Of a DNA stretch of 43,690 bases, positions 24,977 through 38,549 are shown one piece after another. The notes beneath the pieces were generated by a model. The model ran no database searches. It had not been told where the DNA came from and saw only the letters and a program-made list of their open reading frames with translations. Origin of the DNA: Hellea sp. (GTDB lineage: Bacteria > Pseudomonadota > Alphaproteobacteria > Caulobacterales > Maricaulaceae); NCBI GenBank assembly GCA_020629875.1, contig JAHDCL010000014.1, forward strand, positions 1 through 43,690, read 5' to 3'. Within the stretch, counting starts at the first letter, position 1, and each line of letters begins with the position of its first letter. A program made the position numbers and the translations under genes.

Positions 24977-25609
24977 ATGCGTTTATTCAATCTTCAGGAG
25001 GAAATCGTTTCAATCCCAACAGATATAGAAGGCTTGAAAGAGAAAATTCGCCGATGCGACGTCTGCGCCCATGCGGTAAAGCCTTTGCCTGTTACGCCGA
25101 AACCTATCTTGCAGGGAAATACGAAATCCAAAATCCGTATCATTGGCCAGGCCCCTGGAACTCTGGCCCATGCTAGCGGACGGCCTTTTACCGACCCGTC
25201 AGGCACGCGCCTGCGGGATTGGTTGGGCGTTAGCGAGACCGAATTTTATGATGAAGACCTCTTCGCCATTACGCCAATGGGTTTCTGTTTTCCCGGCCAA
25301 GACAACAAAGGTGGAGACTTGCCTCCGCGCAAAGAATGCGCACCGCTTTGGCAGGCGCCTTTGACCGAAACATTAGAGGGCGTAGAGTTGACTCTGCTCG
25401 TCGGCATGTATGCGGTGAAGGAATATCTGGGAGACAGGGCAGAACGGAACCTGACGGAAACTGTTAAACATTGGCGTAATTATGGCCCCGACATTATGCC
25501 TATGCCGCACCCGAGTTGGAGAAACAATGGCTGGATTAAACGCCATGACTGGTTTGCTGAAGAGCTTGTCGAATTAAAACGTCGTATTCGCGAGTTGATC
25601 GGGGCTTAA
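24977..25609 (+). CDS. uracil-DNA glycosylase superfamily protein (family 4-like)
   Basis: The 210-residue product has the superfamily motif IIGQAPGTLAHASGRPFTDPSG at about 55-76 and a C-terminal MPHPSWRN motif in place of the HPS loop. Cys27, Cys30, Cys104 and Cys121 are spaced so that they could bind a [4Fe-4S] cluster, as in family 4 enzymes. It belongs to the group usually annotated only as uracil-DNA glycosylase family protein, whose activity is not well tested. The ATG at 24977 lacks a clear ribosome binding site; an AGGAGG lies 15 nt inside the gene with no suitable start after it. Its last 36 bp overlap the 3' end of pbpC on the other strand. Confidence 0.82.
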   Translation: MRLFNLQEEIVSIPTDIEGLKEKIRRCDVCAHAVKPLPVTPKPILQGNTKSKIRIIGQAPGTLAHASGRPFTDPSGTRLRDWLGVSETEFYDEDLFAITPMGFCFPGQDNKGGDLPPRKECAPLWQAPLTETLEGVELTLLVGMYAVKEYLGDRAERNLTETVKHWRNYGPDIMPMPHPSWRNNGWIKRHDWFAEELVELKRRIRELIGA

Positions 25610-27649
25610 GACCTGTACATGCGAGACGCTCTCTCGCCCCATAACGTCAACGGCGCTAACTTTATAAAACCCAGTTGTCTGAGGATACCAAATGGCTTTC
25701 CCATTTTCACGCTTCAGAGGCTGGCCATCAATATAAAAATTTGGCTTGCCCTGCTCTGCTCTCGCAGAGAGACTAAATCCTCTCGCCTCATCTCCAAAAC
25801 TACTCGCAAGGATTTCGGCTCCATCAGGCGGAAACAAAATCTGCGGACCTTGAGATGTTGCATCCGCAACATGCGATAAACCATCAGGGGCTCTTTCATC
25901 CTTCAAATATGGCTCACTTTGTCCTTTAAAAGGAAGTTGGGCGAATATATCAAATAGTAATGGCGCGGCAGCCAATCGGCCAGTCTCACCTGTACGCGGT
26001 GCCCCGTCCGGACGTCCAACCCAAACAATCACTGTCCAATCATCCGTATATCCCGCAGCCCAAGCATCCCGAAAGCCATAAGACGTTCCTGTCTTATAAG
26101 CGATAGGCGGAGCATTCTGCGCAAGCCAGGCAGGTACACGGCCGGAAGGCGTTGGGGCTTGACGGAGGATCTGCGTAATCTCAGACGCAGCATTTTCGGA
26201 TACGAGTTGAAAAATGCTCGGCTCCGCGACCTCATCTGTCCAAATCAAAGGCTTGGCCGTCCCGCCATTGGCAAGAGCGGCATAGAGCACCGCAAGGTCG
26301 TTGACGGATAAACCTGCCCCACCGAGCGCTAATGCTAACCCCGCGCCCTCGCCGCCGCCGCTTAGATGGGTGATATCTGTTCCAGCCTCTTCTAGCGCCA
26401 TCTCAAATCGTTGCCCGCCTACATAGTCAAGCATAGCAACGGCTGGGACATTTAGGGAATGACGCAAAGCTTCATAGATGCGCACATCGCCATAATAGCG
26501 CCTGTTAAAGTTTTCTGGCTGATAACTTCCAAACCGTGTCGGGGCGTCTTTGACAAAACTCCCCGCACTTGCAAACCCATCATCAATAGCTAGCGCGTAT
26601 ATAAAGGGTTTAAGCGTGGAGCCGGGACTGCGTGCGCGATTAGTCATATCTATCCAGCCGCCTGGGCGGTTACGATCAGCAGAAGCAATATGGGCGCGAA
26701 CCTCCATCGTGCGATTATCAACGATAGTCACGGCCGTATTCACTTGTTCGTTTAGAGGCGTAACGAAATCTGCCGTTTGGCTCTCCAATTTTTCTTGCAT
26801 ATGGTGGTCAATGGTTGTCCGAACCCTTTGGCCGCCTGCTGCCAGTCCATAGGCCGTAATCCATGCCATTTCAGGAATGTTGTGACGCTTTGAGCTAACC
26901 ACGACGTCTTTGGCCTCGGCGGCGCGGCGCAAGTCCAGAGCATTTCTTTCAACCAGTTTCTCTAAGATATAATCCCTGCCCTTTGTCGCCATTTCAGGCT
27001 TGAGGTCAGGCCGCCGAGAATCCGGCGCCTGTGGAAGCGCGATAAGCAAGGCTATTTCCGCATCTGTCAAAAAGTGAGGTGGCTTTCCAAAATATGCGAG
27101 AGAAGCTGCGGTGACGCCTTCAAGGTTCCCGCCATAAGAAACGCGCGTAAGATAACTTTCTAATATCTCATCTTTGCTCATGAAGAGTTCGAGCTGCAGC
27201 GCCTTAAAGCTTTCTATAATTTTAGACTTCAGCACCCGCTCGCGCGGTTCATATTGCCGAACTAGCTGCATGGTGAGGGTCGAGGCTCCGGAGACAGGTT
27301 TACCTGCTCGTCTCCACGACCGTATAGCGCGGCCAATAGCTGGAACATCAACGCCGCTATGAGAATAAAAACGCTTATCTTCGACCGCGATGAGCGCGTT
27401 CACAAAACGCGGGTCAATCTCTTCGAGCTTTGCCGGTATACGCCAAATGCCATCATCAACAGTAAAGCCCGTCAGCCAATGCCCGTCACGGTCCGTCACC
27501 ACAGCAGAATTGTGCTGAACGGCTTCGAGCGGCGGCGGGAACATAATATTCAAACCGATAAAGGCGGTGATGATAGCCGCCAAGCTATGCGTCAGCCACT
27601 TGGGGTAAGTTATGACCCTTTTTGGATATTTAAATGACCAAGCTATCAA
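25574..27649 (-). CDS. pbpC: penicillin-binding protein 1C
   Basis: This 691-residue bifunctional peptidoglycan synthase has an N-terminal membrane anchor (about 20-40). The GT51 glycosyltransferase has catalytic Glu90 in VEDKRFYSHSGVD and GASTLTMQLVRQ. The transpeptidase has SPGSTLKPF (Ser344, Lys347), HSLN (Ser398, Asn400) and YKTGTSYGFRDAWAAGY. The C-terminal ~90 residues form the BiPBP_C domain found in PBP1C (FYIDGQPLKRENGKAIWYP). The start overlaps the alpha-2-macroglobulin stop as ATGA. The same pair (yfhM-pbpC) occurs in E. coli, where the two are thought to cooperate in periplasmic defence and wall repair. Confidence 0.95.
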   Translation of the reverse strand: MIAWSFKYPKRVITYPKWLTHSLAAIITAFIGLNIMFPPPLEAVQHNSAVVTDRDGHWLTGFTVDDGIWRIPAKLEEIDPRFVNALIAVEDKRFYSHSGVDVPAIGRAIRSWRRAGKPVSGASTLTMQLVRQYEPRERVLKSKIIESFKALQLELFMSKDEILESYLTRVSYGGNLEGVTAASLAYFGKPPHFLTDAEIALLIALPQAPDSRRPDLKPEMATKGRDYILEKLVERNALDLRRAAEAKDVVVSSKRHNIPEMAWITAYGLAAGGQRVRTTIDHHMQEKLESQTADFVTPLNEQVNTAVTIVDNRTMEVRAHIASADRNRPGGWIDMTNRARSPGSTLKPFIYALAIDDGFASAGSFVKDAPTRFGSYQPENFNRRYYGDVRIYEALRHSLNVPAVAMLDYVGGQRFEMALEEAGTDITHLSGGGEGAGLALALGGAGLSVNDLAVLYAALANGGTAKPLIWTDEVAEPSIFQLVSENAASEITQILRQAPTPSGRVPAWLAQNAPPIAYKTGTSYGFRDAWAAGYTDDWTVIVWVGRPDGAPRTGETGRLAAAPLLFDIFAQLPFKGQSEPYLKDERAPDGLSHVADATSQGPQILFPPDGAEILASSFGDEARGFSLSARAEQGKPNFYIDGQPLKRENGKAIWYPQTTGFYKVSAVDVMGRESVSHVQVLSPDQLANTTF

Positions 27650-30600
27650 AGCGCATTATCCGCTGAGATTGTAACCTTACCGATAGCGGTACGCGCCATA
27701 TCCTGTGCACGATACATATCCTCTATCATCGCGCCTGGTAGGGAAAATTCGCCCGGCGTCACTGCTCGCACGATATAAGCGGCGTTTTCACCTTTGTCAT
27801 ACCGAGACCAGCGTTGGTGACGTTTGGAGGCAACAAATCGGTCATCCCGGGCTTCGGCAATGTCAAATTCGGCAATCTCGCCCAACCATTCATATGGACC
27901 TTTCTTGCCATTTCGATAAAGCCCATCTTTTGGCTGCAAAACCGTTTCAATCTCGAAACCAGCCGGCAACATATCAGCAATTACCACCATTCGTGCTGCT
28001 TGAATTTCAGATGTATAGCGAAGCTTCACAATGAGGCGCTCACCCTGTTTGAGATTACTCCCATCAAACTCAGTCCCGTCCATACGATAAAGAGTTTTGG
28101 CAATCGTAAAGGCCGTGGCCGCGGGTTTGGGCGCTTGTTTCGGAATGCCGTTAACCGTTGTTGTGACCCATACCTGCTTGTCGCCCGTATTGGTGAGGCT
28201 CGGCTTTTTATCCAATTCAGTTGACACCAAGTTTACCGAAGGACGTTTCTCAGGCCCTCTCATTTCCATGCCTTTAGTCGACACAGAAGGTTTCGAGGAT
28301 GTTGCCAGCAACGCCTTTAGGGCCAAAATTACGTGGGCCTTTTGGTTTGTGTTGGCATATTCCTCTGCCCCGACATGCCTGCGTAAATCCTCAACAAGAC
28401 TAGAGAGCATCGCATCGTCCAGATGCTCGGCACCGAGGGCCACGAAGCCTGCAATATCGCGAAGGGGCGACTGATAGTAGTCATACTCGTTATCGTAATC
28501 TTTAATCTCGTTACCTTCTTCAAAAGCCTGCACCGCCCGTGACTTGTCCCCCATCAAGAACAGGGCCTTCCCAAGATAAGCGTAGCCGATGGGCGAGCGC
28601 ATTTTTTTGCGGTGATTATCAAAGTGATAACGCATAGCCGAGAGATCACCCTTCCCACCCTTTGCTAGAACATAGTGAGCATAGCTCGCACCTTGAGCTT
28701 GGTAGGCTTCACGCCAAACTTGGCGATTTCGGCGCCATCCATAATCGAAGTTATAATGTAATGAAGAGTAGCGCGGCATTTGCGAGACCTCCCGCGCTGC
28801 CTTATAGGCACGAACCATGACATCGGACGGCACGTAGGCACCTTGTTCTTCCGCTCTTTGCAAAAAGTCTGTCGCGTAAATTCCGAGCCAAGGTGATGCA
28901 TACCGGTCACCGGCTCGCCATAAACCAAAAGCTCCGTCTAAGCTCTGGCGGGAGACAAGGCGATTTACCGATTGCTGTATTTTGCGCCGGCGCTCAGTAT
29001 CCGCCATGTCGTCAAAGCCGCCCAAGTCCTCGACATAAAGCATTGGCATAGCCGCACTCACGGTTTGTTCGGTGCAACCATAGGGGTATTTGCGTAAAGA
29101 CTTGATATAGCGGGCAGGATCAATGCCCGCGAGCTGACTGGCGGACACGGTAATTTCGGCACTGCGCGGCAAATACTCCGCAATCAACGCCTTTGTGAGC
29201 GTGAGGGTTTCCCCCGCGCCCAAGGGCCGTGTTGACGCAATCGTCTCATCCATCCAAGGCGCCCGAACCTCAATCGGGAATGTAGATTTAACCGCATAAG
29301 AGCCTGGGCCGTTCACAGCCAATGTCAGAACATCCGTGCCGACTTCGGTCGCGGAGATATTAAGCTTATCTTCCTCGCGCTGCCCCTTGGCTAATTTGAA
29401 TTTGGTCTTTCCACCTGAGCGAATAATCGCCTCAGATGACAGCGCCGCATTATACGTTCCTGCTGCACCTTCGACATTATCCAAAGACACGGTCGCTAAA
29501 GCTTTATCGCCGGGCGCCAAGAAACGCGGCAAACCCAAGATAGCAGGCACTTTATCGCGCACTTTAACAGGCGCAGAGGCACTGCCAATGGCCGTATTAG
29601 ACCATGCCGTTGCCATAAGACGCAGTTCGCCATTAAAGTCGGGGATATTAAGCGGGATACGCGCTTTACCATTTTTAACTTTCACATTGCCGCTAAAGAG
29701 AGAAACCGTACGTGTGGGCACAACCGTCAGGCCCTCGCCGCCTAAGCTATCGCCACCTGTTCTTACATTTACAGGCTGCCCCATATTTGGGTTTAAGATA
29801 CGGGCATAATCATCTCGCAAAGTCGCTCCAAGCGCTTTCTTAGCAAAGAAATGTCCCGCTGCATCCGGGGATTTATACTTTGTCAACTGTAAGATGCCCT
29901 CATCAACGGCGGCAAAATTCATCCAAACGTCCTCTCCGCGCGGGGAATTGGCCACGTCTACGGTAAATATATGCTCTCCGCGCGGGCGGATAACTTCAGG
30001 CGCATTTAAGGTGAGGTTTAGGGTTTGCTCAGCGCGGTCGAGTCCAACATAACTCACGCCCACAGCGCGTCTGGGCACCGGCTGTCCCGTCTTGTCACGC
30101 GGCGTGTAAAGCGTGAGCATTGCATATACGCCATCCCCCCAGCTCTGCTCGAACGGGAGAGTAATTTCGCTTTCCCCTTCCTCCAAAGTGATAGACTGGA
30201 TCAAGCGAATTTCGCTATTGGCGATGACTAAGTCGCCGTGCCCCGCATATGGCGCATTGATCGCGAGTGTAAACTTATCACCTGGATTTTGCGGGCGTTC
30301 GGGAGCGCCCATCGTGATTTTATCGGGCGCATCTGTTCCGCGCGATCCACTACCCCAACCAACGCCGAAGCGATATTCGGCAATGGTTCCATCGGATGCT
30401 TCAAGATCGAGACGATACCGACCACGCGGAAGGCGCTGCGTCCAGCGGAACGGCTCCTCGGCGGAGACGTTCAAATTTCCTTTCGTGACATCCACATCTC
30501 GGACATCGCGGCGATAGCGCCAGCGGCCACGTTCACGGTACCAATACCAGTCATAGTCTTCTTCGACGAGGCGCCATGAAACAGAGCTGGCAACGCGCTC

Positions 30601-32577
30601 ACCCGAATTACTTAGCGCAACAATGTCAATACTGACCGGTTTCTTGGAACTCGCGTAACCATAGAGAAAATCCGGTTTCACACCGAGATAGTTATCTTCT
30701 GTGCGTACGGGTATTCTTACGCTATCTCTCACATAACGTCCGCCAGGTTCAGCGACGCCGCCGGTAATTTGAACACGCATTGGAAAGCCCGCATTCACCT
30801 TATTGTTCTTAAAGTCCAGTCCAAGTTCCAACTTTCCGTCGGCATCTGTTATGCCGCCGCTCATATCTATAATACGTTCGCGGAAACCTTCTGAGGTAGG
30901 TCCAAAGCGATAGCCTTCGAAGTCCTTAAAAGGCTTTGGGTCAAGCTCAAGCCGCGCCTCAGCTTCACCTTCCAATGCGCCGCCTGGAGCGCCGTAAAGA
31001 AATTGCGCATCCAGAACGACATCGCGAATTTCACCGGAGCGAACAGGCGCGTCATCAACATCGATCCCAAGGCGTAATTTTTGCGGCACAAAATCCTCGA
31101 CCGAAAACTCAATTTTACCCACTTGGCCTCTGCCTTCAGCCGCAACCAATACAGTCCAAATCCCGCGCGGAGCCGAGAGTGGCACCTCATAATCCCAAGT
31201 CAGAACACCAGCATTTGGCGCGGTTTCGAAACGTTTTTCAAATATGACCGCTTTGTTTGGCTTTTGCACCTTTAACGTAATCGGGCGGCCTTCTATCGCT
31301 TGGACACTGGCGTCGCGCAGCATAACCGTAAGATGCGCGGTCTCGCCCGGACGATACACTCCCCGCTCAGCGAAGCCATAAACATCAACCTCTCCGCTAA
31401 TGCGCCGACCGCCGATATCGAAATCTGACAAATCTAGAGGCGCGCGCTGTAAATCCAAAATAGCGTAGTCATTATCGCGTCCATAGGCCATGACCATCTT
31501 TGGAGAAGATGCGCCAACACCCTTTAGAAGCGGAGCATCAAACTTAACGCGGCCCGAACTATCTGTCGTGCGTTCGAGCAGAATATCATTGTTAGCTGCT
31601 ATCAGGGCCAGCTTTACGCCACTCTGTAAGCCAGCTGTTTCGATAGAGCGCACTGAGACGGTTAGTCCATCTGCGCCGCGATAGCTTGAGAGCGCCATGT
31701 CGGTTGACATAATCCAACGATAAGCACTCGCGGGGCGATCTTTCTTCGCGGTGTCTTTGGCCGTTACTACGTAAGCGCCGGGATCCAAGTCTCCAATAAT
31801 TTCCTTCATCGGAAGGACTGTGGTGACTTTTTCATTACGTTTCTTATCTACCGCAACCTTATCACCCCAAACCTTAACCCGTTTTCCATTGGCCGCGTAA
31901 TCATAGCTATATTGCCCCTCCAAGGAAGCATTGCCCTCTTCGGGCGACAGTTGAGAAAGAATTCGGTCAGTAACGCGATAAACAATGATATCTAATTCAT
32001 CGACATTCACGGTTTCTATTGCCAATCCCTGTGCGTTGCTCCGCGGTAAGATAATTCCCTGCCCGGCGAATCCAACAAAGCCCGGCTTGTCACCAAAGCT
32101 GATTTCAACCGATTGAGCGCTCTCTAGCTTTACCTTTTCATCCTGCGATGGAAGCCCTTCTCTTAGTGTCAGGGTATAATCCTTTTCAAAACCAAACCCC
32201 GCCGCACATAATTGCGAGCCGTTGATTGTAAGGTTTACGGGAATCTTAGGTTCAGTGACGACATAGTCCCTCAGAGCTGTCTCTGAGCCTGGCTTTAGTT
32301 TTTGTGAAAAGTTGAAACAAGCTTTGGGCGTCGTCCCTGATGTATCGGCCTCCCATCCCAAATAGCGTAATTTTTTCGCATACTCGACTTTCCGAGATTC
32401 AATAGCCGTATCCGTAGATGACGGCATTCTCCGAGGAGGGGTCGGCGTGAGCCGCTCCACCTTTATGGATTGTTGCTTTGAAGTACTGCTGTCATTGTCA
32501 TAAAGTTTATAGCCAACCCACCATGCCATTAGCATGGCTCCAATTATCGCTACCGCTAGGATAAAATTGCGCTTCAT
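27646..32577 (-). CDS. bacterial alpha-2-macroglobulin (YfhM type) with intact thioester motif
   Basis: This 1643-residue protein is a large periplasmic protease-trap protein. The N-terminus MKRNFILAVAIIGAMLMAWWVGY is a hydrophobic anchor without a lipobox cysteine, so it is probably held in the inner membrane by that helix. Repeated MG (macroglobulin) domains follow, including YGFAERGVYRPGETAHLTVMLRD and YGYASSKKPVSIDIVALS. The thioester motif is YGCTEQT with Cys1168 and Gln1171, in an alpha-alpha toroid domain (LDGAFGLWRAGD). A C-terminal receptor-binding-like domain ends the protein. GAGGGG lies 5 nt before the ATG. It is translationally coupled to pbpC, which should restore peptidoglycan while this protein traps invading proteases. 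Confidence 0.93.
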   Translation of the reverse strand: MKRNFILAVAIIGAMLMAWWVGYKLYDNDSSTSKQQSIKVERLTPTPPRRMPSSTDTAIESRKVEYAKKLRYLGWEADTSGTTPKACFNFSQKLKPGSETALRDYVVTEPKIPVNLTINGSQLCAAGFGFEKDYTLTLREGLPSQDEKVKLESAQSVEISFGDKPGFVGFAGQGIILPRSNAQGLAIETVNVDELDIIVYRVTDRILSQLSPEEGNASLEGQYSYDYAANGKRVKVWGDKVAVDKKRNEKVTTVLPMKEIIGDLDPGAYVVTAKDTAKKDRPASAYRWIMSTDMALSSYRGADGLTVSVRSIETAGLQSGVKLALIAANNDILLERTTDSSGRVKFDAPLLKGVGASSPKMVMAYGRDNDYAILDLQRAPLDLSDFDIGGRRISGEVDVYGFAERGVYRPGETAHLTVMLRDASVQAIEGRPITLKVQKPNKAVIFEKRFETAPNAGVLTWDYEVPLSAPRGIWTVLVAAEGRGQVGKIEFSVEDFVPQKLRLGIDVDDAPVRSGEIRDVVLDAQFLYGAPGGALEGEAEARLELDPKPFKDFEGYRFGPTSEGFRERIIDMSGGITDADGKLELGLDFKNNKVNAGFPMRVQITGGVAEPGGRYVRDSVRIPVRTEDNYLGVKPDFLYGYASSKKPVSIDIVALSNSGERVASSVSWRLVEEDYDWYWYRERGRWRYRRDVRDVDVTKGNLNVSAEEPFRWTQRLPRGRYRLDLEASDGTIAEYRFGVGWGSGSRGTDAPDKITMGAPERPQNPGDKFTLAINAPYAGHGDLVIANSEIRLIQSITLEEGESEITLPFEQSWGDGVYAMLTLYTPRDKTGQPVPRRAVGVSYVGLDRAEQTLNLTLNAPEVIRPRGEHIFTVDVANSPRGEDVWMNFAAVDEGILQLTKYKSPDAAGHFFAKKALGATLRDDYARILNPNMGQPVNVRTGGDSLGGEGLTVVPTRTVSLFSGNVKVKNGKARIPLNIPDFNGELRLMATAWSNTAIGSASAPVKVRDKVPAILGLPRFLAPGDKALATVSLDNVEGAAGTYNAALSSEAIIRSGGKTKFKLAKGQREEDKLNISATEVGTDVLTLAVNGPGSYAVKSTFPIEVRAPWMDETIASTRPLGAGETLTLTKALIAEYLPRSAEITVSASQLAGIDPARYIKSLRKYPYGCTEQTVSAAMPMLYVEDLGGFDDMADTERRRKIQQSVNRLVSRQSLDGAFGLWRAGDRYASPWLGIYATDFLQRAEEQGAYVPSDVMVRAYKAAREVSQMPRYSSLHYNFDYGWRRNRQVWREAYQAQGASYAHYVLAKGGKGDLSAMRYHFDNHRKKMRSPIGYAYLGKALFLMGDKSRAVQAFEEGNEIKDYDNEYDYYQSPLRDIAGFVALGAEHLDDAMLSSLVEDLRRHVGAEEYANTNQKAHVILALKALLATSSKPSVSTKGMEMRGPEKRPSVNLVSTELDKKPSLTNTGDKQVWVTTTVNGIPKQAPKPAATAFTIAKTLYRMDGTEFDGSNLKQGERLIVKLRYTSEIQAARMVVIADMLPAGFEIETVLQPKDGLYRNGKKGPYEWLGEIAEFDIAEARDDRFVASKRHQRWSRYDKGENAAYIVRAVTPGEFSLPGAMIEDMYRAQDMARTAIGKVTISADNAL

Positions 32578-34772: not shown

Positions 34773-37220
34773 TTATCTTATAAAAGTAGCTGGGTCGAGA
34801 TGGCGCCCATTTTTGCGAATTTCAAAATGCAGGTGTGGACCTGTTGATTTACCTGTTGACCCAACGGAACCGATGACCTCTCCAGCTTTAACAGTTTGAC
34901 CCTCAGTTACTCCCAAGCTTTCCAAATGCCCGTAGTGGGACTGATAGCCGTTGGCGTGCTTCAAGATAATACGGTTGCCCCAATTCCCTCCATTCGAAGC
35001 CAGATGCACTACCCCATTGGCGCTGGCAAATACAGCATCTCCGGTTTGACCCTTAAGGTCGATACCATGATGAGTGGTCTCCCATATCTTTCCCACCTGC
35101 CCGAACGTTGCTGTAACCTTTCGACTCTTTGTTGGCCAAGTAAATTGTGGCGCCGGTGGTCCTACATCGAGTTTTATTTTTTTGATGGGCGGTTCTAGCT
35201 TAACAGGAGGTATTGGCGGCACGGGGTCATACGAGACCTTTTGCGGGCTAACATCTTCATGTTTGAACTCCCCCACAGTAATCTTGCGCGATTCTTTGCC
35301 CGACTCAGATTGAGACACGATGTGAGTGGATTTTGGTGAAATTACGACCTTTGTGAGAGTCGCCTTCTTTACCTCCATATCAGCTAGAATATTGCAGTAC
35401 TTGGCTTCTTTATAAGAAGGAATAACCTTCCCATTTACAGTCCAGTTGTTCTCGGTATAGCGAAGCGTAGCCCTTTCTTGGCGAGACGTTAGAAAGCCAT
35501 CTTCAATCAGATATCCATAAAGAGTTTCGCGCATTGCATCATATTTTGCGTGTTGTTTGTCAGCCTTAATTTTCGCTTCGTCTTTACGCTTAGCTTGTTC
35601 TTTCGCACGTTCACGCTGCTCGCGAGCTCGTTCTTGCTGCTCCCAGGCTTTTTCCATCGCTCTCTCGCGCTTTTCCTCTTCCCGCTCACGCCACGCTTCC
35701 TGCCGCTCTCTCTGACGTTCAGCACGGTCCTCCCGCCGCTCTCGTTCTTCCTCTGCGCGTTCGATTTCACGCTTGACCTTATCTTCCATGCGCTCGGCCT
35801 CTCGTTCGGCCCATTCAACCTGATGCTCAATTTGTTTTTCCAAACGTTCCTGTTCCCGCTCACTCAAATGGTCGTTCTTGTCAAAGTAACGGTCCAGATC
35901 TGCCTCGAAATATTGCATTTCGATTTCGAATTGTTTCATCTTGGCGTCAAAGCCAGCACTATCGAAACTCCCGTTCTTAAGCGTAGGCGGCTTCGGGGGT
36001 TTCGGGGGCTGCGGTATAGACCGAGAAAGGCGACTGATTACGCTTGGATTCTTATCAACATCTGTCCAAGTCCCATTATTCAGCACCCAACGGCGACCAT
36101 CTTTACCGATTTTAACCGTCACGTCCCGACCGTTTAATCGCTGCGTTACAAATTTGTATTTTCCCGTAATCGCATCTGCCTTCTTATCTCCTTCTGCGTC
36201 GGGGTGCGCATTCGCGACTGACGAGGTCGAGAGATAAATTCCGCCAATTAATACGATGGCGATTAGCGGCATGAGAAGGTGCTCAGGACGACGTTGATGC
36301 TCCGGCGAACCAACGAGACGCTTAAGGCGGTCCATCAGAGGCGTATCTCCGCCATCAGCAGCCATAGAGAACCCGTGCCCAGGCGTTTTGAGACGCAGAG
36401 CCGCCAATCCACGGACCAAGGCTTGCGGATCACGCGATTGCGCGACGGCTAAGTCATCACAGGCTTGCTCACGATCTATATCTATTTTATTTGAGATATA
36501 GTGAATAGCTGGGTGGTAGAAGAGCACCGTTTTAATGGCAGTCTGGAACAGGTTTACTAGGTAGTCGTAGCGGCGAATATGCGCGAGTTCGTGCAGTAAT
36601 ATCGCCTCGACTTGATCGCGGGGCAAACCCATCAAAAAGCCAGCGGGTACAAGTACGACAGGTTTCAAGAAACCAATCGTCAAAGGCCCCGTCACATGAT
36701 CGGAAACAAATATACGAACCTTTTCAGACACACCTGTATTCAGAACAAGCGTTCGGAACCGGCTCTCCCAAACATATGGTACATCGCTGAGGCCCGTTCT
36801 GCGCAATTTTTGAGTAATTACATATGCCGCGAAGTAGCGAGTAGCCATAAAGGCAAAGCCCAGGCACCAAATAATGCCCAAAAGAGGAGCCGAGGCAGCA
36901 GCTGAGACAGACAGACTTTGGGAAGTAACCTGCAGCCCATCGGCCGTACCCGTAAGTAAAGCGGCGGCTTGCGATACTGTCTCCGTTGCAGAAAAGCCCT
37001 TAATTGCGGCTGGCGCCTGCCCGCCGCTTTGATAAAGTCCGAACGTTACCAAGAAAGCGATGAAGCAGCCAAATAAGCACAAGACTTGGAACTTATAGCG
37101 GATGGAGGGCGAGGAATTTCTCGATACCGCTCGGAAGGCTATCACGGCCAACATAGCAATCCCTCCTTGCCATAAACTATGCAGCAAGGCCCACCCTAAG
37201 CTATCAAATATCTGTGTCAT
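34773..37220 (-). CDS. M56 (BlaR1-type) membrane metallopeptidase fused to an M23/LytM endopeptidase domain
   Basis: This 815-residue fusion has an N-terminal membrane part with helices near 10-30, 45-62, 112-135 and 315-333. Its M56 zinc site is HELAH (210-214) with the third ligand Glu251 in DREQACDD. After a proline-rich linker (402-412) there is a highly charged Glu/Arg/Lys helix, likely a coiled coil, over about 430-560. A second Pro-rich linker (666-690) leads to a complete M23 domain with His717 and Asp721 in HHGID, His765 in SHYGHL, and His796/His798 in PHLHFE. In BlaR1/MecR1 the M56 domain cleaves a BlaI/MecI repressor; here the outer part is a cell-wall hydrolase fold instead of a penicillin-binding sensor. 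blaI lies 39 bp upstream and the TonB receptor 28 bp downstream. Each domain assignment is firm; the signalling role is inferred. Confidence 0.92.
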   Translation of the reverse strand: MTQIFDSLGWALLHSLWQGGIAMLAVIAFRAVSRNSSPSIRYKFQVLCLFGCFIAFLVTFGLYQSGGQAPAAIKGFSATETVSQAAALLTGTADGLQVTSQSLSVSAAASAPLLGIIWCLGFAFMATRYFAAYVITQKLRRTGLSDVPYVWESRFRTLVLNTGVSEKVRIFVSDHVTGPLTIGFLKPVVLVPAGFLMGLPRDQVEAILLHELAHIRRYDYLVNLFQTAIKTVLFYHPAIHYISNKIDIDREQACDDLAVAQSRDPQALVRGLAALRLKTPGHGFSMAADGGDTPLMDRLKRLVGSPEHQRRPEHLLMPLIAIVLIGGIYLSTSSVANAHPDAEGDKKADAITGKYKFVTQRLNGRDVTVKIGKDGRRWVLNNGTWTDVDKNPSVISRLSRSIPQPPKPPKPPTLKNGSFDSAGFDAKMKQFEIEMQYFEADLDRYFDKNDHLSEREQERLEKQIEHQVEWAEREAERMEDKVKREIERAEEERERREDRAERQRERQEAWREREEEKRERAMEKAWEQQERAREQRERAKEQAKRKDEAKIKADKQHAKYDAMRETLYGYLIEDGFLTSRQERATLRYTENNWTVNGKVIPSYKEAKYCNILADMEVKKATLTKVVISPKSTHIVSQSESGKESRKITVGEFKHEDVSPQKVSYDPVPPIPPVKLEPPIKKIKLDVGPPAPQFTWPTKSRKVTATFGQVGKIWETTHHGIDLKGQTGDAVFASANGVVHLASNGGNWGNRIILKHANGYQSHYGHLESLGVTEGQTVKAGEVIGSVGSTGKSTGPHLHFEIRKNGRHLDPATFIR

Positions 37221-37655: not shown

Positions 37656-37671
37656 AACGACACTTGTCGTT
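37656..37671. promoter_or_regulatory. probable BlaI-family operator (7-2-7 palindrome)
   Basis: AACGACA and TGTCGTT are exact inverted repeats around a central CT. BlaI/MecI operators have the same 7-2-7 geometry and the same inner ACA-N2-TGT core. It lies 13 bp upstream of the blaI start, where bound repressor would block transcription of the blaI-M56/M23-TonB receptor genes. Confidence 0.65.
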
Positions 37672-37748: not shown

Positions 37749-37790
37749 AGAGTGCGGCCACCCTCTCGCTATTCTCGGGAGGGCCTATTT

Positions 37791-38549
37791 ATGGATTTAG
37801 CTATGCGTTTTGGACTTTCCTTTTTTTCTATCTCAGCTGTTGCAGCCATGGCGCTTGCCGCTCCGGCCTTCGGAACAACAAGCCTTTTGGGGTCCGCGGA
37901 TGACGGCACCTATCGGACGGAAAAAGTTTATTCGACTTCCGAATGTACGGCGCTTTGCAAAGCCGACGCCAAAACTTGCCGCGGCACAATCACCGTACAA
38001 ATGGACATAAGCAAACCTGAAATGCTTTGTCGTTTGAACAATGGCAAGGGCGCCCAGCCTGCATTCCCCTCAACACCACCCAAGCCACTAAATATGGATA
38101 TCGCACTTTCAGATTTTAATGCTTACCGCGCGGAAATGGGCCTAACGCCTGTGCGTTATTCCGAAAAACTCAATAAAGCCTCCCAACTCCATGCAGAAGA
38201 TATGGCGCGAGCGGGCGACGCATCCCACACGGGAACGGATGGCTCCACCCACGGTGACCGCGTCCAACGGCAAGCCTACTATTTTTCGATTGTGGGCGAG
38301 AATGTCGCCTCAGGGCAGAAGTCTTGGGACAAAGTTTTTTCCGCTTGGCAGAAAAGCCCGGGCCACAATGAGAATCTATTGAGGTCCGATGTGTCTGACT
38401 TTGGCCTCGCACTCGTCTATGATCCAGACAGCGCCTATCAGACGTATTGGGCTATGCTTGTGGCGTCCCCGCTTGACGCGGAGACGGTCGGCTATTTGCA
38501 ACGCCAAGGCGACATTGCGCCTGTGGCATCAACTAGCCCTAGCCAGTAA
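37791..38549 (+). CDS. secreted CAP/SCP-domain protein with N-terminal PAN-like Cys module
   Basis: From the ATG at 37791 (GGGAGG 8 nt upstream) the product is 252 residues. A signal peptide ending near APAFG comes first, followed by a short module of about 50 residues with four cysteines (SECTALCKADAKTCRG, EMLCRL) that resembles a PAN/apple domain. The CAP domain comes next, with FNAYRAEMGLTPVRY, SHTGTDGSTHGDRV (His), VGENVASG (Glu) and SPGHNENLL (His), the usual CAP cleft residues, then LALVYD. Bacterial CAP proteins are secreted and mostly of unknown activity. The gene is divergent from blaI and its 3' end overlaps the convergent MaoC-like gene by 11 bp. A GTG at 37752 is a less likely start. 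Confidence 0.85.
   Translation: MDLAMRFGLSFFSISAVAAMALAAPAFGTTSLLGSADDGTYRTEKVYSTSECTALCKADAKTCRGTITVQMDISKPEMLCRLNNGKGAQPAFPSTPPKPLNMDIALSDFNAYRAEMGLTPVRYSEKLNKASQLHAEDMARAGDASHTGTDGSTHGDRVQRQAYYFSIVGENVASGQKSWDKVFSAWQKSPGHNENLLRSDVSDFGLALVYDPDSAYQTYWAMLVASPLDAETVGYLQRQGDIAPVASTSPSQ

Follow-up and report, generated by a model that had tools for sequence, protein, structure and literature searches.

A BlaI-linked M56 protease with an optional M23 domain and a neighbouring gene for an outer-membrane barrel in Hellea: a candidate envelope sensor

BlaR1-type systems, which pair a BlaI-type repressor with an M56 protease, are known mainly as antibiotic-resistance switches. The window analysed here (a stretch of 43,690 nucleotides, contig JAHDCL010000014.1 of Hellea sp.) encodes, next to a BlaI-type repressor, an 815-residue protein in which an M56 domain is followed by an M23 (LytM-type) domain. 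What does such a protein sense, and what is its M23 domain for? The original prediction was that the M23 domain could sense or cut peptidoglycan and in this way might trigger the protease. We favour, at somewhat less than even odds (roughly 0.45), a BlaR1-type BlaI-M56 envelope sensor in which the M23 domain is a peptidoglycan-docking accessory and probably not the core sensor.

The fused chain itself is real. Its open reading frame (ORF) runs on the minus strand from an ATG start (37220..34773), and the plus strand across it has many stops. HELAH at residues 210-214, E251, H717, D721, H765 and H798 are all where they had been placed, and H796, the first His of the HLH motif, is present too. 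The two proline-rich linkers lie near residues 402-412 and 665-690, and the charged helix, put at about 130 residues, is a single helix of 120 in an AlphaFold2 model (454-573, hereafter the rod; 77.5% E/K/R/Q/A). Pfam matches are well above cut-off for M56 (PF05569, 110.4 bits vs 31) and for M23 (PF01551, 113 bits vs 28.7), and the M23 domain has both zinc motifs, H(x)nD and HxH (H717, D721, H798). The M56 part matches BlaR1 by profile (E 7.9e-24, HMMER) and the BlaR1 cryo-EM structure 8exs (Z 20.2, 247 residues, root-mean-square deviation 3.6). The M23 part matches StM23 (9gy1; Z 21.0, 129 residues, deviation 3.5), EnvC (4bh5; Z 20.6, 125 residues, deviation 2.0) and the DipM LytM domain (Z 20.5). 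Overlooked at first were a small beta-domain (residues ~353-388), a C-terminal domain (558-656) that precedes M23, the likeness of the last transmembrane (TM) helix to a signal peptide, the neighbouring genes and an operator.

The proposed BlaR1-like layout is borne out: blaI is the gene directly upstream, and the place of the sensor is taken by a region that is not of the penicillin-binding kind. No penicillin-binding domain of Pfam is matched anywhere in the 815 residues, and the NCBIfam model blaR1_generic scores 76.6 bits, below its cut-off of 400. We read the window as containing a BlaI-M56 unit in which the penicillin-binding sensor has been replaced by the beta-domain, the rod, the C-terminal domain and, in this branch only, M23. 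No Pfam family is matched by more than one of the 21 members of the C-terminal domain (best single-member E 0.00088), there is no significant relative among PDB sequences (best profile E 0.64), Foldseek finds nothing with E < 0.001, and structure comparison (VIA) gives EsaG as best match at Z 4.5. No TonB-like fold is among the matches listed, which excludes nothing.

Is the M23 domain needed? It is present in five of the 30 subfamily proteins with a visible C-terminus, and the other 25 keep everything from M56 to the C-terminal domain, with a barrel gene downstream. The carriers, found among 21 aligned full-length proteins, are the window protein and those of G012, G091, G018 and G060 (G and L numbers are our own handles). 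The remaining 16 aligned proteins end after the C-terminal domain; nine further proteins (G607, G608, G095, G061, G101, G093, G047, G116, G100) also lack M23, and a close relative, G094, is cut off before the M23 position. A role of M23 as the essential sensor of this protein is not supported by this distribution. What stays the same is the set of repressor, operator, M56, rod, C-terminal domain and barrel, to which M23 is an addition. We therefore consider it unlikely that M23 itself is the trigger, binding or cutting peptidoglycan and passing the event through the rod to M56 as beta-lactam acylation is passed on in BlaR1, even though it stands in the BlaR1 sensor position, has an invariant zinc site, and is the obvious sensor candidate in the short fusions of a sister family, most of which have only ~10-40 residues between their M56 and M23 matches.

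How did the module arise? At a strict threshold, 12 of the 249 genomes searched in the order contain the subfamily, and every one of the 12 belongs to the window's family. Among 289 genomes sampled from the class, the C-terminal domain is found in that of the window and not in the 288 others (three of the window's order are listed). In an M56 tree (built without rows L021 and L026, which failed a start-motif filter) M23 presence needs two changes, and a single clade of carriers is not rejected (approximately unbiased test, p 0.161). In an M23 tree made by a quick method, with long-branch warnings and with stand-alone rows L007 and L188 left out, the five long-form M23 domains lie on one side of a branch with SH-aLRT support of 86. 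The trees suggest either one gain and one loss of M23 or two gains.

The sister family, in the same order, has shorter M56-then-M23 fusions, often of 450-500 residues and mostly without rod and C-terminal domain. A short-fusion query matched 65 of 105 genomes, some rows being partial matches. We collected 66 distinct fusions (69 less L070 and L088, which duplicate L014 and L001 and are cut at an edge, and L112, whose ORF is cut); BlaI is directly upstream in 63, the exceptions being L108, L157 and L044, of which L044 reaches the edge of its stretch. A sample of 398 genomes across the phylum gave four fusions, two of them repeats (L224, L225), so that two distinct ones were added, one from outside the class, for a total of 68. 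Four M56-M23 proteins (L142, L143, L144, L226) are 795-874 residues long and have ~300-390 residues after M23. That fusions of this kind had been seen before, as the original prediction said, is correct, and the architecture as such is already known: a section of a review of M23 enzymes (PMC9662197) lists M56 as one of the extra catalytic domains that accompany M23, together under 1% of hits, and describes a role of M56 in wall cleavage as not shown. Searches of an open-licence library, which excludes subscription papers and preprints, turned up neither a worked-out mechanism for M56-M23 proteins nor a module of BlaI, M56 and barrel.

The catalytic residues of the fused M23 domains tell more about their use. 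The original prediction held that loss of these residues in homologues would count against it, and at one position such loss is the rule. The positions of H717, D721, H796 and H798 are invariant in the 66 fusions, and that of H765 has His in six, Gln in 53, Ser in six and Arg in one; with the two later fusions, H765 is kept in 8/68 and lost in 60/68, and the zinc ligands are kept in 68/68. Within the window's subfamily, G018 and G060 have Ser here, and the window, G012 and G091 keep both catalytic histidines. H765 and H796, 31 residues apart, correspond to His260 and His291 of LytM. Changing either of the latter to Ala abolishes activity, and equivalent losses are cited as inactivating in lysostaphin, LasA and ALE-1, according to part of a LytM paper (PMC4594094). 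Stand-alone M23 domains behave differently. We took the 29 best-scoring from the window's and related genomes, the 24 best-scoring from the phylum draw and 23 lower-scoring ones; the His is kept in 29/29, 24/24 and 15/23, or 68/76, and in 55/55 of those with all three zinc ligands (22 + 24 + 9). A kept zinc site with one catalytic residue replaced is thus seen in fusions and not in stand-alone domains. Since the zinc ligands are kept while H765 is mostly lost, a binding role fits most fusions better than a cutting one. The pattern is what a binding domain would show, and binding seems to have been under selection more than hydrolysis. Judged from these residues, M23 in most fusions, and in two of the subfamily, bears the marks of a zinc-dependent binding domain.

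The window's own M23 domain may bind or may cut. The claim that both metallopeptidase domains are catalytically complete holds for the core motifs; it fails at the M56 position discussed below and at one feature of M23. The FGxR-type Arg of M23 domains, which we take to be the proposed oxyanion Arg of EnpA, is present in 51/66 fused and 18/29 stand-alone domains and missing from the window, so that activity of the window's domain should not be assumed. For EnpA, an Arg is proposed to serve the oxyanion, as one section of the M23 review reports (PMC9662197). Might M23 instead be the effector? Signal peptidase would then free a soluble wall trimmer made of rod, C-terminal domain and M23, and the fusion to M56 would only tie its amount to the stress response. 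The two catalytic histidines of the window, G012 and G091 and the signal-peptide-like last helix would suit this, but H765 is lost from most fusions, with Ser in two close relatives, and the window is without the Arg; we hold the idea to be improbable.

If M23 is an accessory, what is constant around the M56 gene? The trio BlaI, M56 and a plug-and-barrel protein is present at 28/28 loci with both sides visible (20 stretches of the same family, L098, L099, L276-L280 and the window; some of the barrels are cut by contig ends). All 20 family stretches have BlaI upstream and a barrel downstream, that of L057 being cut by the contig end. The barrel is the next recognised downstream gene at all 28 loci, L061 having a small ORF in between. 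In the window the gaps are 39 bp (blaI-M56), 28 bp (M56-barrel) and 118 bp (barrel to the next gene). The Plug match of the window's barrel is 22.9 bits against a cut-off of 23.9, and those of its relatives L047 and L045 are 29.6 and 22.5. All 20 aligned barrel proteins end in F or Y, and none of the 20 matches a TonB box, searched with one simple pattern of a motif that varies. Separately, the ORF between M56 and barrel in L061 resembles the C-terminal domain, and two or three similar barrel genes stand in a row in L050-L052, L055, L056, L058-L061, L064, L277, L278, L280 and L282.

After the barrel the window has genes for alpha-2-macroglobulin (A2M) and penicillin-binding protein 1C (PBP1C), at 25574-32577 on the minus strand and overlapping by 4 bp. 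Could this be an ordinary beta-lactam or wall-damage response, whose operon runs on to these two genes and whose task is their induction? They are on the same strand, and no terminator-like minus-strand site lies between barrel and A2M. In the 20 family stretches, however, A2M is never found and PBP1C is found once, about 10 kb away (L053), for which reason both were rejected as members of the module. The barrel-A2M gap is 118 bp long and contains no copy of the operator, and Pfam matches no penicillin-binding domain in the M56 protein; we regard this explanation as very unlikely.

In the 400 bp at and upstream of the blaI start, the dyad ACGACANNTGTCGT is found with at most one mismatch at 23/23 module loci (17 exact, six with one mismatch), a level reached by none of 4,600 Markov-shuffled control sequences, and such a dyad recurs at all seven further loci with blaI visible (L275-L280, L283). 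By its position and conservation it is a candidate operator of the BlaI-type repressor. Exact copies elsewhere turned up in a search of eight genomes. In the window's genome a small exported protein has a tandem pair upstream, which is conserved in H. balneolensis; genes for exported DUF2807 (GIN) proteins have upstream sites in G083, G065 and G055, and in G091 one site precedes the gene for an exported Lumazine_bd_2 protein. Three further sites lie in G083, G055 and G037. The classical BlaI box, TACANNTGTA, was rejected as the operator here, since none of the 23 upstream stretches contains an exact match. The short sister-family fusions have another dyad, CTACANNTGTAG, which is present in 22 of the 58 stretches upstream of them. 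At the DUF2807 genes (L217, L220, L222) a second dyad, TATCG-N5-CGATA, lies ~25 bp or less from the operator and may belong to another regulator. A CAP-domain gene (37752-38549, plus strand), divergent from blaI, shares the intergenic stretch with the operator and may be co-regulated; it has no match in the 20 other stretches.

Can the M56 protease work as in BlaR1? H210, E211, H214, D219, E251 and D255 align (HMMER) with BlaR1 H201, E202, H205, D210, E242 and D246, and are invariant in all 21 long and 61 short proteins. The position of BlaR1 Tyr261 is Leu268 in the window and Leu in 21/21 long proteins, whereas it is Tyr in 61/61 short fusions and in 4/4 other M56 proteins; this residue is not a Pfam criterion for M56 membership. 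In part of the BlaR1 paper (PMC9834060) Asp210 and Tyr261 are called near strictly conserved, and mutation of either to Ala, in the case of Tyr261 in Bacillus licheniformis, is cited as abolishing induction, there of beta-lactamase. Because Leu replaces Tyr261 throughout the subfamily, its M56 domain may work differently. The window's genome has a second BlaI-M56 pair (L090:4427-6831, G000:C2) with a different C-terminal part; it keeps the Tyr261 equivalent and has no M23 match.

The last TM helix resembles a secretory signal peptide, with a basic stretch, a hydrophobic core and an AxA motif (SSVANA/HP, the slash marking the candidate cut). Relaxed signal-peptide criteria are satisfied by this helix in 16/21 long and 58/61 short proteins, and by other TM segments of the same proteins in 16/73 and 56/176; for a strict AxA with a basic stretch the figures are 7/21 and 52/61, against 2/73 and 26/176. 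According to an excerpt of the BlaR1 study (PMC9834060), the signal peptidase SpsB cuts BlaR1 just past its last TM helix so that the sensor is shed, and the authors propose that drug binding shields the site. By analogy, regulation by shedding is plausible for the window protein.

Taking genes, order, domains and the conserved operator as observed, we infer the following topology and working. BlaI bound to the ACGACANNTGTCGT dyad would repress the operon together with a few more genes whose products are exported. The rod would reach towards the outer membrane with the C-terminal domain, which would there read the state of the plug-and-barrel protein of the adjacent gene, and the M23 zinc site would hold the assembly on peptidoglycan and help to report the state of the wall. 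At rest, signal peptidase would shed the periplasmic part, as for BlaR1; engagement in the periplasm would stabilise the chain, and the cytosolic M56 site would be switched to inactivate BlaI, presumably by cleavage. The simplest reading is that the partner is the outer-membrane barrel and the output a small set of exported proteins. A link between BlaI systems and wall fragments has precedent, because in B. licheniformis a peptidoglycan dipeptide frees BlaI from its operator, as part of PMC3305447 describes. A bolder form of this reading, which we think doubtful, is a proteolytic relay across the envelope with the barrel (apparently without a TonB box) as receptor, rod and C-terminal domain as the reach, M23 as reporter of the wall, and exported envelope proteins rather than resistance as the output. 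In most fusion lineages the M23 fold would then have turned, through the loss of one His, from a hydrolase into a zinc-dependent peptidoglycan binder.

Several observations weigh against the envelope-sensor reading. In the first place, the AlphaFold2 model (mean pLDDT 74.8, pTM 0.40, alignment of 21 sequences) supports individual domains and its arrangement of them is not to be trusted; the hydrophobic helix ~316-331 sits in a low-confidence part. A periplasmic M23, as originally predicted, is suggested instead by its place C-terminal of the last TM helix and by analogy with the topology of BlaR1 in its cryo-EM structure (PMC9834060). Between 196 and 423 residues separate the TM helix from the C-terminal domain, a spread that speaks against a strict ruler, and contact of that domain with the barrel is proposed from gene order only. 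The trio also has ragged edges: contigs end in or beside the M56 gene in three genomes (L275; L281; L282 with L283), the visible part fitting the trio, and in a Hellea metagenome-assembled genome (G058, L015:8602-9453), not among the 28, BlaI has 73% identity, the M56 match stops after 145 residues and the 18 kb stretch has no barrel gene, which points to decay of the module or to faulty assembly. When one mismatch is allowed, operator matches outnumber those of a reversed-pattern control in six of the eight genomes and are fewer in G012 (5 v 8) and G065 (4 v 6), and for this reason only exact, promoter-placed sites were used. The Leu for Tyr261 may mean that the protease of the subfamily works poorly, and a strict AxA is present in the last TM helix of only 13/21 long proteins (56/61 short), falling to the 7/21 given above when the basic stretch is added. 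The window's M23, with both catalytic histidines, may be a working hydrolase. The His is absent from 8/76 stand-alone domains too, though these have also lost the zinc motif. Finally, all counts are of sequences, several of them near-copies, and not of independent events; on the quick M23 tree the H765 state changes at least eight times and the fused or stand-alone label at least three times.

Features of the module in the window (positions in the window; residues refer to the M56 protein)
Feature	Position	Strand	Evidence or remark
M56 - rod - C-terminal domain - M23 protein, 815 aa	34773..37220	-	ORF, motifs, Pfam
M56 domain, residues 15-261	36438..37178	-	Pfam E 1.2e-31
Last TM helix, resembling a signal peptide, residues 305-338, at low confidence in the AlphaFold2 model; candidate cut by signal peptidase between A336-N337-A338 and H339	36207..36308	-	
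Small predicted periplasmic beta-domain, residues ~353-388	36057..36164	-	AlphaFold2 model
Single long charged helix, residues 454-573	35502..35861	-	AlphaFold2 model, composition
C-terminal domain, no recognised family, residues 558-656	35253..35549	-	Aligned in 21 rows
M23/LytM domain, residues 716-810	34791..35075	-	Pfam E 7.8e-33
BlaI/MecI-type repressor, 127 aa	37260..37643	-	Pfam PF03965 94.6 bits, cut-off 22.6
Outer-membrane plug-and-barrel protein, 682 aa	32696..34744	-	Conserved downstream partner; weak Plug match
Operator-like dyad ACGACA-NN-TGTCGT	37657..37670		13 nt before blaI ATG; only exact match in window

The locus suggests a little-studied way to sense the state of the cell envelope. 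A repressor-protease pair is tied here to an outer-membrane barrel by gene order and to a wall-enzyme fold by fusion, and if the reading is true it hints more generally at the signals that M56 proteins of Gram-negative bacteria detect. With a defined operator and a small set of candidate targets, the sensing question becomes directly testable.

How does the module compare with known systems? With BlaR1/MecR1 and BlaI/MecI of Staphylococcus and Bacillus it shares a repressor that adjoins the M56 protein, the aligned HExxH, E..D and Asp219, a sensor region past the last TM helix, a signal-peptidase-like site in the same place and a dyad operator. It differs in having no penicillin-binding domain match, Leu268 for Tyr261, the rod and C-terminal domain with optional M23 and a barrel partner, and the operator ACGACANNTGTCGT rather than TACANNTGTA. 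The short M56-M23 fusions (L095 type) are like the window protein in the BlaI upstream of most of them, the order of M56 then M23 and the kept zinc site; unlike it, they mostly lack rod and C-terminal domain, mostly have Gln for H765, keep Tyr261 and use the dyad CTACANNTGTAG. DipM, EnvC and NlpD, the LytM-domain activators, also have the M23 fold in partner-binding proteins, and EnvC likewise combines long helices with a LytM domain (structure match 8tzl), whereas the M56-M23 fusions have invariant zinc ligands with one catalytic His mostly replaced, and are joined to M56. Lastly, the active M23 peptidases LytM, ShyA, Csd3 and Pgp3 share the fold and the zinc and catalytic His residues that the window's domain retains, but these are wall enzymes without an M56 signalling domain.

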